The notes beneath the pieces were generated by a model. That model did not search any database. It worked only from the letters and a program-made list of their open reading frames with translations, and was not told the DNA's origin. Both the position numbers and the translations under genes were made by a program. From Ruegeria arenilitoris (lineage in GTDB: Bacteria; Pseudomonadota; Alphaproteobacteria; Rhodobacterales; Rhodobacteraceae), in NCBI RefSeq assembly GCF_013035315.1, contig NZ_WQHP01000001.1, positions 434,001 through 498,000 of the forward strand: 64,000 nucleotides of DNA. The letters run 5' to 3'. This document shows, one piece after another, positions 4,146 to 38,861 of this stretch (within the stretch, counting starts at the first letter, position 1; each line of letters opens with the position of its first letter).

Positions 4146-5045
4146 ATGACCCAGCCTTTGAACCAAATCACCGAAGCGTTGCGACAACAGATCGACCAAT
4201 TGCCCCCCGGTCTGCAGGCAGCCGCGAAGTACATCCTGGATCACCCAGCGGATTTCGGATTGGACCCAATCCGCGAAACCGCTGCCAAGATCGGCGTCAG
4301 CTCAAACGTGCTGGTTCGCTTGGCCCAACGCATGGGTTTCGACGGATTCGAGGCTTTTCGCGCCCCGTTCCGCACCGCCCTTGTGACCGACAGCGAGGAC
4401 CATATGAGCCAATCTTGGCTCAGCGACATGCAAGACGGCGATACCTTCAGTGAAGCTCAGGCCCAATTCGCTCAGAACGCGCAGAACGTGGTCATGCGGT
4501 CCCTGCGCCTCATGCATCCGGACAAAGTCAGGCAAGCGGTTGAGATCATGACCCGGTCTGACAGGTGCTTTGTTACGGCAACGCGCGCAAGCTATGCGTT
4601 GTCGTACTATTTTTCCTATACCGGTCGCATGGCGCACCCCGGCCTGCGCCTAGTCCCGCGCCACATGGGGGCCGCTACCGATGATCTGTTGGACGCCACC
4701 CCCGGTGACTGCCTGATCGCGATCACAGTCAGCCCCTATTCCTCTGATACTATCCAGTCCATGCGCTTAGCCCGGCGCAAATCCATGCCAATAATCCTGA
4801 TCGCCGACAGCGAGGTGATCGCCCCCGGCATTGAACCAGATGTTGTCTTTCCGGTCAGCACCCGGTCGCTCCACCATTTTTCAAGCTACGCCGGGGCAAT
4901 GGTGGTTCTGGAATGCCTTCTGGGCCACCTGTTCCAAGCCGGTGGAGACGCCGCGCGCGAGCGGGTCGACGCTTACCAAAAATCCCGAGAGGACACGGGC
5001 GCCTATTGGCGGCCGTCCCAGCCCCCCAGAATCAGGCGCACATAG
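4146..5045 (+). CDS. MurR/RpiR family transcriptional regulator
   Basis: The 299-aa protein has the RpiR layout: an N-terminal helix-turn-helix of about 75 residues (IRETAAKIGVSSNVLVRLAQ is the recognition region) and a C-terminal SIS domain with TATRASYALSYYFSYT, the sugar-phosphate-type ligand pocket. RpiR regulators answer to phosphosugars or, in many catabolic loci, other small acids. It is divergent from the BKACE/aminotransferase pair, making it the probable local regulator. A short AAGG lies only 2 nt before the ATG, so the ribosome site is weak. Effector unknown. Confidence 0.85.
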   Translation: MTQPLNQITEALRQQIDQLPPGLQAAAKYILDHPADFGLDPIRETAAKIGVSSNVLVRLAQRMGFDGFEAFRAPFRTALVTDSEDHMSQSWLSDMQDGDTFSEAQAQFAQNAQNVVMRSLRLMHPDKVRQAVEIMTRSDRCFVTATRASYALSYYFSYTGRMAHPGLRLVPRHMGAATDDLLDATPGDCLIAITVSPYSSDTIQSMRLARRKSMPIILIADSEVIAPGIEPDVVFPVSTRSLHHFSSYAGAMVVLECLLGHLFQAGGDAARERVDAYQKSREDTGAYWRPSQPPRIRRT

Positions 5046-5047
5046 AA

Positions 5048-5073
5048 AAGCCCCGGCGGTGACGCCGGGGCTT
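5048..5073 (-). terminator. Terminator hairpin between convergent rpiR and coxM-like genes
   Basis: An 11-bp stem (AAGCCCCGGCG at 5048-5058, CGCCGGGGCTT at 5063-5073) with a 4-nt GTGA loop. Read on the minus strand it is followed by TTTTC, so it best serves the CoxM-like gene; it may also stop the plus-strand regulator transcript. Confidence 0.75.
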
Positions 5074-5090
5074 CTCGGATTGTTTGGAAT

Positions 5091-5882
5091 TTACATACAG
5101 GCTTCGATGGCCCGCTTGGTCATGACACTCACCAGATGCGCACGGTACGCTTTGCTGCCATGCAGGTCTGCGATCATGTTAGCCGGGTTGATGCTCAGCC
5201 CGGTCAGGGCATCCGCACGGAATTCCTTATTCAGGGCTTCTTCCGCTTCGGACCAGCGGAACACACCATCTTCACTGGCTCCCGTTACGGCGACACGCAC
5301 CCCATCTGCAAATCGCGCCAGATAGACACCGACAAGCGCAAAACGTGACGCGGGCTGAAGGAACTTTTGATAGCTCGCAGCCTGTGGCACCGGGAAGCGC
5401 ACCGAAGTGATAATCTCGCCCTCATCCAAAGCCGTTGAGAACATCCCCTCAAAGAACTCATCTGCTGCAATCTGACGAGTGTTGGTAATGATCGTCGCAC
5501 CTGATCCCAAGGCACCGGCCGGGTAACAGGCTGCCGGATCGTTGTTCGCCAGCGATCCGCCGATCGTACCGCGGTTGCGGACCGCAGGATCACCGATCTG
5601 CCCCGCCAGCGCCGCCAAAGCGGGATAGCTGCTGGCCGCCTCGCTCGCGACAACGGCATGCGGAGTTGCTCCGCCGATGGCGACAGACCCATCATCCTCG
5701 ACGCAGACCCCCTGCATCTCGGCTATCCCACTCAGCGAAACCAAGGACGAAGGCGCTGCCAACCGTTGTTTCAACGTCGGGATAAGCGTCTGCCCGCCTC
5801 CTAACGCCTGCGCGTCCTCGGGCCCCAACGCGGCGACCGCATCAGCTATGGTCGAGGGTTTCTCAAACTCGAAATTGTACAT
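5091..5882 (-). CDS. CO-dehydrogenase-like FAD subunit (medium, CoxM family)
   Basis: The FAD-binding subunit of a molybdenum hydroxylase; it passes electrons from the Fe-S subunit onward. The N-terminal ALGGGQTLIP and the central RNRGTIGGSLANNDPAA are the two FAD-contact motifs of the CoxM/XdhB family. The start is ATG 5882 (263 aa) with AGGA a few bases upstream; a longer frame reaching 5975 would include GC-repeat sequence and is not credible. It is the last gene of the S-L-M set, the order typical of form II enzymes. The 93-bp gap to coxL holds a GC-rich repeat. Natural substrate unknown. Confidence 0.88.
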   Translation of the reverse strand: MYNFEFEKPSTIADAVAALGPEDAQALGGGQTLIPTLKQRLAAPSSLVSLSGIAEMQGVCVEDDGSVAIGGATPHAVVASEAASSYPALAALAGQIGDPAVRNRGTIGGSLANNDPAACYPAGALGSGATIITNTRQIAADEFFEGMFSTALDEGEIITSVRFPVPQAASYQKFLQPASRFALVGVYLARFADGVRVAVTGASEDGVFRWSEAEEALNKEFRADALTGLSINPANMIADLHGSKAYRAHLVSVMTKRAIEACM

Positions 5883-37425: not shown

Positions 37426-38484
37426 TTAAATTATCGGTCTGGGCGACGGCATGCTGAGCCCGGATGTGACGTTAATCAAATCCATTTCGCCCATGCCCTT
37501 GATATCGACAGGCCCCAGGTCCGACACCTGAAACTCGTCGATCAGAGCATATTTCATTTCTTCCGGGGCCACGATATTCATTGGGTTTGCAAAGACTTGC
37601 AGCCGAGAGGCAATGTTAACCGCCGGTCCAAACACGTCATAAACGTATTTCTGAATACCAACGACCGATCCCACGGCCGCCCCCATACCCAGACCCACGC
37701 GCGCCTGCCACTTGTGCGGATGGCTTTCGTTGCGCCGTTCCAGGTACCTCAAGAACCGGACCGCACAATGAGCCACCGCCGTGGCATGATCCGGAGTGGG
37801 ATCAGGCATCCCTGAGACCGCCAGATAGGCGTCGCCTATGGTCTTGATCCGCTCGCACCCGAACTGTTCAACGATCCGGTCAAAGGCGGTGAATATGTCA
37901 TTGAGCTCGCTGAGCGTAACCGTCGGATCGGTTTTGGCCGCGAAATCCGTGAAACCAACGAAATCCAGCATCACAACCGAGACCTGATCAAATAGCTGTG
38001 GTGTCACGACGCCAAAGGTCTTGAACTCTTCATACACGGCCCGCGGCATCAGGTTCAGCAACAGCCGCTCGACCCGTTCTTTTTCACGTTCCAACTCGCG
38101 CGTGTTGCGCTCGACCATGGTCGAGTAGCTGTCGATCATACTCTCCAGTTCGCGAATACGGGTGATGTTCTGGAACTCGACCACCAGCAGCTGTTCGGTA
38201 ATCCCTTTTGCCAAAGACACCGCAACTGCAAAGATCAGCGTTCGGCGCTTGGGTTTGACCTGTAACTCGACCGAATAGCGCAGTCCTGACTGTTTAACGT
38301 CCTCAAGCTCTTTTGCGTCGAGGCCGGGAAAATAGTCCATCAGGGTCTGCTCATCGCTGGGCGCACCAAACCACTCTGCAAAAGGCCCGTTGTGAAACAC
38401 AAATGTCAAATCCGAGGCACGCACAACCGCAACACCAACGCCTATCGCGCGCAGCAGTTGTTCGTTTATGGCCAGAATGCTCAT
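37426..38484 (-). CDS. PAS-linked class III adenylate cyclase
   Basis: A 352-aa cytosolic cyclase. Residues 1-105 form a PAS-like domain, 110-148 a helical linker (ERNTRELEREKERVERLLLN) of the signalling-helix type, and 165-340 the class III catalytic domain. Metal-binding Asp174 (VVMLDFVGF) and Asp218, transition-state Asn290 and Arg294 (VNIASRL) are present. The base-selecting pair is Lys214 (IKTIGD) and Asp283 (VYDVFG), which specifies ATP over GTP; hence cAMP. The start overlaps the truncated-haemoglobin stop by 4 bases, so the two proteins are made together; the globin is a candidate gas-sensing partner. Confidence 0.9.
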   Translation of the reverse strand: MSILAINEQLLRAIGVGVAVVRASDLTFVFHNGPFAEWFGAPSDEQTLMDYFPGLDAKELEDVKQSGLRYSVELQVKPKRRTLIFAVAVSLAKGITEQLLVVEFQNITRIRELESMIDSYSTMVERNTRELEREKERVERLLLNLMPRAVYEEFKTFGVVTPQLFDQVSVVMLDFVGFTDFAAKTDPTVTLSELNDIFTAFDRIVEQFGCERIKTIGDAYLAVSGMPDPTPDHATAVAHCAVRFLRYLERRNESHPHKWQARVGLGMGAAVGSVVGIQKYVYDVFGPAVNIASRLQVFANPMNIVAPEEMKYALIDEFQVSDLGPVDIKGMGEMDLINVTSGLSMPSPRPII

Positions 38485-38861
38485 GCGGCATCCCGTGTGA
38501 CAATGATTGATCTTTTGGATTCAATGGCATCCAAGGCAACTTTGATATGCGCGTCTTCCATTCCGTGCATTGAAAGCGCTTCGCTGAACAGCGCCGCCAT
38601 TTCATCAAAATCCTCGTGCGATATGTTCAGATGTCGATGGACCGCCTCAATCCTGTCGTCGCTGAAAGAGGCTGGCCCCCCTACCAGAGATGAGACAAAC
38701 TTGGTCTGATGGTCGATGAGGCGCGGCATGTCTATGTCTTCGAAATGGCCGCCGATCTGTTCCGAGTCCAAGGCCATTTCATAGAATGTCATCACGACCC
38801 GACTGATCGTTTTGAACCCGCCATACCGTTCGTAAATCGTTTGCCCCACACCGAAACCCAA
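38481..38861 (-). CDS. Truncated haemoglobin (group I-like)
   Basis: The 126-aa protein aligns by eye with Mycobacterium trHbN: IYERYGGFKTISRVVMTFYE matches the A/B helices with distal Tyr27 (B10 position) and AVHRHLNIS gives proximal His75 (F8). LVGGP and the E-helix stretch RLIDHQTKFVSSL also fit. It should bind haem, O2 and NO. It lies directly upstream of, and overlaps by 4 bases with, the PAS adenylate cyclase gene, which suggests haem-based control of cAMP production rather than simple NO detoxification. Confidence 0.85.
   Translation of the reverse strand: MGFGVGQTIYERYGGFKTISRVVMTFYEMALDSEQIGGHFEDIDMPRLIDHQTKFVSSLVGGPASFSDDRIEAVHRHLNISHEDFDEMAALFSEALSMHGMEDAHIKVALDAIESKRSIIVTRDAA

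Follow-up and report, generated by a model that had tools for sequence, protein, structure and literature searches.

What does a small truncated haemoglobin (trHb) do when its gene overlaps that of a nucleotide cyclase? This question is raised by a locus of Ruegeria arenilitoris that lies within a stretch of 64,000 nucleotides, which we call the window (the whole stretch of DNA that was analysed). As a rule, known gas-sensing cyclases consist of one chain, as in sGC and the globin-coupled sensors. The reading that we favour, at a rough probability of 0.62, is that the two proteins form a split haem sensor in which the trHb would be the sensor subunit and the output would be cAMP and, in one branch, a phosphorelay. 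The features of the locus are as follows.

38481..38849, minus strand: predicted group-1 truncated haemoglobin (trHb), 122 aa, GTG start at 38849; a TTG at 38861 is a possible upstream start
38481..38484, minus strand: overlap of the trHb stop (TGA) and the cyclase start (ATG), ATGA, 4 bases
37426..38484, minus strand: predicted PAS / signalling helix / class III nucleotide cyclase, 352 aa, ATG start
38167..38439, minus strand: PAS-like domain, cyclase residues 16-106, from the structure model; PAS_8 match weak
38050..38163, minus strand: long signalling helix, cyclase residues 108-145 (38 residues), from the AlphaFold model and the HNOBA profile
37480..38004, minus strand: cyclase catalytic domain, residues 161-335, from Pfam Guanylate_cyc and aligned residues
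38888..38915, minus strand: AT-rich promoter-like stretch 5' of the globin, GTTAACAAAACTGTCAATATGATATAAC, picked out by eye

Two open reading frames on the minus strand encode 126 aa (38861-38481, from the TTG) and 352 aa (38484-37426, from the ATG). We read the globin as a protein of 122 aa that begins with the GTG at 38849 because the start codons of its orthologs align there. The first-pass annotation had described a 4-base overlap of the two genes and a cyclase without a fused globin domain; the overlap is the ATGA on the minus strand, and a Pfam scan of the window protein agrees with the second statement. Upstream of the globin on the same strand is a glycosyltransferase-25 gene, at a distance of 79 or 91 bases depending on the globin start, and the promoter-like stretch looks alike by eye across the 8 Ruegeria upstream regions compared. 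A convergent TetR gene lies downstream of the cyclase. In the window's genome, a profile search recovered one Bac_globin domain in total, and the cyclase query gave 19 matches, of which the 18 besides the pair's own cyclase are distant (E ≥ 6e-15).

The globin matches the Pfam Bac_globin model (E 2.4e-14, 54 bits with a cut-off of 21), and its best PDB relative by sequence is 3aq5, labelled group 1 truncated hemoglobin (E 3.5e-13). M. tuberculosis HbN (1idr) matches it at 8.3e-10 and HbO, which we take to be a group 2 trHb, more weakly at about 4e-4. On these sequence comparisons the protein is assigned to the group-1 truncated haemoglobins, and the Bac_globin match and PDB relatives bear out the earlier description of a group I-like trHb. 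In the 122-aa numbering, the predicted haem pocket comprises Y23 (TyrB10), F36 (PheCD1), L44 (LeuE7), Q48 (GlnE11) and H71 (HisF8), where the B10, E7, E11 and F8 labels come from an alignment with the Tetrahymena protein and from the customary residue numbering. The residues previously called Tyr27 and His75 do occupy the B10 and F8 positions, and correction of the start renumbers them Tyr23 and His71. This pocket resembles that of HbN (Tyr B10, Leu E7, Gln E11, His F8). When the globins of all pairs are aligned, His F8 and Gln E11 are present in 110/110 and Tyr B10 and Phe CD1 in 109/110, the remaining globin being partial; position E7 is Leu in 100 of the 110, Gln in 5, Met in 2 and Ile in 2. 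The window globin and its counterpart in Ruegeria sp. R14_0 share 97% identity, and the identities of other pair globins to the window's are as low as 38%, which argues against all loci stemming from one recent transfer.

The partner protein matches Pfam Guanylate_cyc (E 5.7e-41) and carries Asp174, Lys214, Asp218, Asp283, Asn290 and Arg294. In class III cyclases, we take the roles of these residues to be metal binding (Asp174/Asp218), substrate recognition (Lys214/Asp283) and stabilization of the transition state (Asn290/Arg294). By its catalytic residues, the protein is a predicted class III adenylate cyclase, with ATP specificity predicted because of the K214/D283 pair. The first-pass annotation had called it a PAS-linker-class III cyclase whose Lys214/Asp283 pair selects ATP; both residues are indeed present, and the selectivity is to be read as a prediction from them. 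The full catalytic set (DKDDNR) is intact in 101/110 partner cyclases, and the nine exceptions include a fragment (L212). Pfam also gives matches to PAS_8 (6e-3) and HNOBA (1.2e-3) in the window cyclase, both under the Pfam cut-offs. The HNOBA match, at 18.8 bits where the cut-off is 23.4, aligns profile positions 159-214 of 216 with residues 96-152. At E ≤ 0.1, HNOBA is found in 15/15 cyclase members (best 2.4e-5) and PAS_8 in 11/15. The same Pfam scan gave no match to the HNOB domain in the window cyclase at E ≤ 1.

An AlphaFold2 model of the cyclase, built with 51 sequences (pLDDT 83.4, pTM 0.54), consists of a PAS domain (16-106), a helix (108-145) and the cyclase domain. Its best Foldseek matches are 5o5l and 5o5k, the soluble domain of a bacterial adenylyl cyclase. 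Chains of sGC, human and Manduca, account for 17 of the best 50 matches (E 6.8e-19 to 1.8e-14), and their alignments span 336-404 columns including gaps, compared with about 180-220 for chains comprising only a cyclase domain. Superposition on sGC is poor (RMSD 11-22 Å), and the sGC TM-scores, normalized to the query length, are 0.44-0.49 and do not exceed what the cyclase-domain-only chains reach. Therefore, only the domain order is supported and not the three-dimensional arrangement. As modelled, the partner looks like the sGC domain order (PAS, coiled coil, cyclase) minus H-NOX, and it falls outside the HNOBA family as defined. Elsewhere in the window's genome there is one HNOB (H-NOX) domain, at G000:C18:9726-10190, so a second haem sensor may coexist with the pair.

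The PAS-like domain is a candidate docking site for the globin. Correlation of the globin distance matrix with those of the PAS (r 0.72), the linker (0.64) and the cyclase domain (0.71) gave similar values for all three regions, so no single docking surface, the PAS included, is singled out. A role in Pycsar anti-phage defence was considered and rejected, given that no cyclic-nucleotide effector was found among nine neighbouring proteins scanned; the PycC profile matches the cyclase at 5.7e-10, which is unsurprising for any class III cyclase.

The pair is widely conserved. When 198 genomes of the family were searched with the globin query, 23 matches were obtained, and each of the 16 at E ≤ 6.5e-30 (in 15 genomes) has the cyclase directly downstream (16/16). 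None of the 7 weaker family trHb matches (E ≥ 5.6e-7) adjoins a cyclase match at E ≤ 1e-40. We then surveyed 385 genomes of the class, with globin and cyclase profiles searched independently. The cyclase was present at E ≤ 1e-60 in 17 genomes (all at ≤ 1.1e-106), and in 17/17, drawn from 12 families, a trHb lies just upstream; one of these (G224) is a damaged copy with a partial globin and stops within the cyclase. The adjacency in 16/16 and 17/17 survey cases exceeds what chance would give. Counted in reverse, 16/18 trHbs at E ≤ 1e-30 have the cyclase, the two without it being in G236 and G506. In a scan that covered 84,980 species, the globin had 282 relatives; the best 80 come mostly from Ruegeria and other Rhodobacterales, and the cyclase lies beside 77 of these 80. 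The only plasmid record at E ≤ 1e-35 is megaplasmid pLA3 of Novosphingobium pentaromativorans, on which the two genes are annotated as "group 1 truncated hemoglobin" and "adenylate/guanylate cyclase domain-containing protein". A survey of 398 genomes of the phylum gave 5 that match the cyclase alignment at 1e-50, 3 of which belong to the window's class; the other two (G592, G598) match in the catalytic part only and have no trHb within 1.5 kb flanks. The first-pass annotation had proposed a survey of genomes for conservation of the pair, and the 12 families among the 385 class genomes, together with the Novosphingobium megaplasmid, carry that conservation beyond close strains and thereby exclude one of the objections that the annotation had itself named.

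Loci were read in detail at 115 places (15 from the family survey, 1 plasmid record, 80 named relatives and 19 from the class and phylum surveys), which are not independent because some genomes occur in two sets. Of these, 109/115 are paired, and the unpaired ones are L086, L094, L104, L210, L211 and L214. For comparisons we used 55 representatives, including the window, whose cyclases are less than 90% identical. Flanking genes differ between loci. Throughout the paired loci, globin and cyclase are separate genes, with the globin stop preceding the cyclase start region, and no trHb-cyclase fusion was noticed among the family and class survey matches. Some large open reading frames around distant trHbs turned out to be CheA-type kinases, which are described below.

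The arrangement of the two genes points to translational coupling. A 4-base overlap occurs in 83/109 paired loci. Among 53 representatives, the overlap is 4 bases in 31 and 1-11 in 7, and the genes are 1-35 bases apart in 11 and farther in 4, some of which reflect uncertain starts. Within 20 bases upstream of the cyclase start, 42/53 representatives have none of four Shine-Dalgarno-like tetramers, and none was seen by eye before the window cyclase. For 12 Ruegeria loci that were picked for comparison, the globin gives a dN/dS of 0.02-0.05 (obtained for 4 loci) and the cyclase one of 0.03-0.10 (obtained for 11), and many of the dS values are close to saturation. Upstream regions contain FNR-like sites (≤2 mismatches) in 18/55 cases versus about 6.7 in shuffles, and CRP-like sites in 2/55 versus 2.5. 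We do not claim FNR operators, because AT-rich promoters may explain the excess and the shuffles preserved base composition only.

At some loci a possible second output gene accompanies the pair. Homologs of a PAS-PAS-HisKA-HATPase kinase lie near the pair at 10 distinct loci. In four of them (L056, L058, L059, L065) the kinase gene comes after that of the cyclase and is read the same way; under a crude choice of starts the spacing is -38 to +28 bases. The kinases of L056 and L059 are 47% identical and those of L059 and L065 45%. Hybrid kinases with a receiver domain lie divergently upstream at L055 (which equals L136), L057, L060, L061 and L196, and one runs in the same direction as the pair at L205. 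An OmpR/PhoB-type regulator homolog is present at 8/10 kinase loci (missing from L056 and L059) and was confirmed by Pfam in four (L065, L055, L196, L205). Other kinase matches (L129, L200, L203, L204, L214; E 3e-32 or worse) were taken as general kinase kinship and set aside. A search of 20 chosen genomes gave 12 kinase hits at E ≤ 2.4e-61, none of them more than 10 kb from the pair, and these hits fall in nine genomes that had been chosen because the kinase was already seen there; five of the 20, the window's included, have no kinase match at 1e-30.

The kinase loci coincide in part with decay of the cyclase. Asn290 or Arg294 has been lost in 6/54 representatives (L056, L058, L059, L061, L062, L065). 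The kinase is near 5/6 of these residue-loss cyclases versus 5/48 of the others (Fisher p 0.0004, ignoring kinship), and among the 27 loci with long flanks the counts are 5/6 versus 5/21 (p 0.015, again ignoring kinship). Because a single globin clade (95/97) unites L056, L058, L059 and L065, the residue losses are not independent, and the events may number two or three. The remaining locus, L062, has no kinase nearby, and one is present beside the other copy of the pair in the same genome. A histidine kinase with a response regulator is therefore a possible second output at some loci. As a separate observation, an OsmC-like protein is encoded near the pair in L055, L056, L058, L059, L060, L063 and L065 (7/7), and these seven loci also have varying mixes of an MSMEG_0569-like flavin oxidoreductase (an assignment under the model cut-off), an FAD_binding_3 monooxygenase, a histidine kinase and an OmpR-type regulator. 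The OsmC-like, flavin oxidoreductase and FAD monooxygenase neighbours suggest that an older role may concern oxidative chemistry. A UbiE-like methyltransferase is found near the pair in L057, L142 and L196.

In our surveys the cyclase was not encountered without a trHb. Taken with the coupling of the genes, the persistence of pairing with degenerate cyclases and the sGC-like domain order, this makes the trHb as sensor subunit of the cyclase the simplest account. We infer contact between the two proteins, haem loading of the globin and a response of the pair to haem ligands and gases, along the following lines. The trHb would bind O2 and meet NO or CO in its HbN-like pocket, and co-translation across the ATGA would deliver both proteins to the same place in similar amounts. 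The globin would then dock on a cyclase homodimer at its PAS-like domain. When the haem ligand or redox state changed, the signalling helix would convey this to the catalytic dimer, and cAMP synthesis would be altered. In the branch that combines decayed catalytic residues with a PAS histidine kinase, the partner might serve as an adaptor that relays the globin signal to a phosphorelay. The split O2/NO sensor feeding cAMP of the first-pass annotation stands in so far as the coupling and the PAS, signalling helix and cyclase order fit it. The general statement that the globin feeds cAMP has to be qualified, given the 9/110 partners without the full catalytic set, the loci with kinase and regulator, and two Ruegeria strains that have only the globin.

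In R. meonggei (L086) and Ruegeria sp. EL01 (L094) the globin is kept and the cyclase is gone; the stretch concerned is at about 5000-5400 in both loci. A Ruegeria/Silicibacter locus (L104:5330-5638) retains only a degenerate cyclase remnant beside its globin. L210, L211 and L214 are further loci with a close trHb and no cyclase. The trHb of L210 adjoins a Rieske-type oxygenase and that of L214 a dienelactone-hydrolase-like gene (both named by eye), and both globins fall in the pair clade. Retention in L086 and L094 and the neighbours in L210 and L214 indicate that the globin can have an independent role. The trHb of L211 has a 4-base overlap with an open reading frame of 146 aa (L211:8629-9066, minus strand) and no cyclase; by eye, this frame has a PAS-like start as in the cyclase and a helix at its end. 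It has no Pfam match and no cyclase-profile match at E ≤ 1, and we do not claim it as a PAS-only partner (hhalign E 0.046 at 1% probability, model pLDDT 48).

Since an independent role is possible, we keep as the main rival that the globin works as an NO dioxygenase or peroxidase and has no part in signalling by the cyclase, the two sharing an operon and one stress response with no contact. The globin outlasts the cyclase in L086 and L094, its pocket is of the HbN type, and HbN-like pockets are known for NO dioxygenation. Several pairs also have flavin oxidoreductase, FAD monooxygenase or OsmC-like genes nearby, which would suit this rival; the flavin oxidoreductases might reduce the globin, and two NAD(P)/FAD oxidoreductases adjoin the Novosphingobium trHb. 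Furthermore, passages of one paper describe another bacterium in which a trHb gene and a ferredoxin reductase share one operon (PMC3820574). However, co-regulation of two enzymes does not predict that pairing should persist with a degenerate cyclase, and the trHb upstream of 17/17 class cyclase orthologs and the ATGA coupling in most loci likewise count against it. We consider this rival unlikely, and it is the strongest that we weighed.

A second alternative is that the globin acts indirectly, clearing NO or O2 near a cyclase whose PAS senses another ligand. The cyclase does carry its own PAS-like domain, in which N32, F35, W38, F39, E73, R81, Q105 and N106 are conserved in at least 90% of the aligned cyclases. 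However, no His or Cys is among these positions, so the PAS itself is unlikely to bind haem (another small ligand is possible), and we regard the indirect role as improbable. That the genes are neighbours by shared descent in roseobacters and functionally unlinked would suit the predominance of Ruegeria and other Rhodobacterales among the best 80 of 282 relatives, but the differing flanks, the 12 families of the class and the Sphingomonadales plasmid leave this explanation with almost no credence.

Beyond the pair, related globins are found inside larger signalling proteins. Distant trHbs of the class survey, located about 1.5 kb into L165, L167, L168, L169 and L173, belong to CheA-like proteins. 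By Pfam, L168 and L169 encode CheA-type kinases of alphaproteobacteria with the order Hpt, globin, dimerisation, HATPase and CheW. L173 has two globins, one inside the CheW-like region, plus a receiver, and its start lies beyond the available stretch. L165 and L167 have similar CheA-like sequence after the globin, as judged by sequence only. The CheA globins form one tree group (94/88) outside the pair globins, and no paper on trHb-in-CheA kinases was among the matches listed in the open-access literature. We count these globin-bearing kinases, and the kinases and regulators near the pair, in favour of the split-sensor reading. Other distant trHbs differ again in context. Those of L031 and L027 are preceded, by eye, by a lipoprotein-like signal (LALSACAG, LLLTACDK) and are possibly exported; in L026 and L028 a trHb-like stretch sits near the C-terminus of a longer open reading frame (553 and 524 codons, respectively) whose tail contains Cys. 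A broader reading would make the alphaproteobacterial trHb lineage a plug-in gas sensor, used with a PAS-cyclase, with a dead cyclase leading to a kinase relay, or built into CheA, and so a general split-receptor design. We put this forward tentatively, as possible rather than probable.

Several known systems provide comparisons for the pair read as a split haem sensor. sGC and the bacterial H-NOX-HNOBA proteins have in common with it the order of PAS-like domain, coiled coil and class III cyclase and, if our reading is right, a haem protein as sensor. In sGC the haem domain is a fused H-NOX, whereas the pair has a separate truncated globin and no H-NOX, and the substrate is GTP in sGC versus predicted ATP in the pair cyclase. 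The globin-coupled adenylate cyclase of Leishmania is a single fused eukaryotic protein in which a globin controls an adenylate cyclase, and the pair may be likened to it in that control. The catalytic domains of 5o5k and Rv1625c (4p2f) are 36-37% identical to that of the pair cyclase over 183-218 columns, and 5o5k shares the K/D substrate pair in the alignment. Unlike Rv1625c, which is a membrane protein, the pair cyclase lacks any evident membrane part and carries a PAS-like domain. HbN is of the same family as the pair globin and has the same pocket residues, and it is not known as a cyclase partner. Globin-coupled sensors include HemAT and globin diguanylate cyclases.

The globin of a globin-coupled sensor is the gas-sensing input to a signalling output (PMC3287990, PMC3820574). 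It is an S-family globin fused to that output, whereas the pair has a 2/2 trHb encoded apart; the globin-output fusion that defines these sensors is absent from the window genes. M. tuberculosis HbN is described as an NO dioxygenase (PMC3493545). One paper places the trHb of the roseobacter Roseobacter denitrificans in group II and nowhere uses the word "cyclase" (PMC4319818). A signalling helix is described in cyclases including HNOB/HNOBA receptors, with globin among its contexts, and the signalling-helix passages of that paper do not name a separate trHb (PMC1592074). Among the matches listed in a search of the open-access literature, the trHb-cyclase pair does not appear in titles or the beginnings of abstracts.

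If the split-sensor reading is true, a defined signalling role would fall to small free trHbs, for which NO detoxification is the function mostly argued. The system would be one in which the sensor can be added or withheld in vitro, and marine bacteria that are easy to grow would allow a direct test of what purpose free trHbs serve. The branch with pseudo-cyclase and kinase would then represent an unusual case of a dead cyclase turned transducer.
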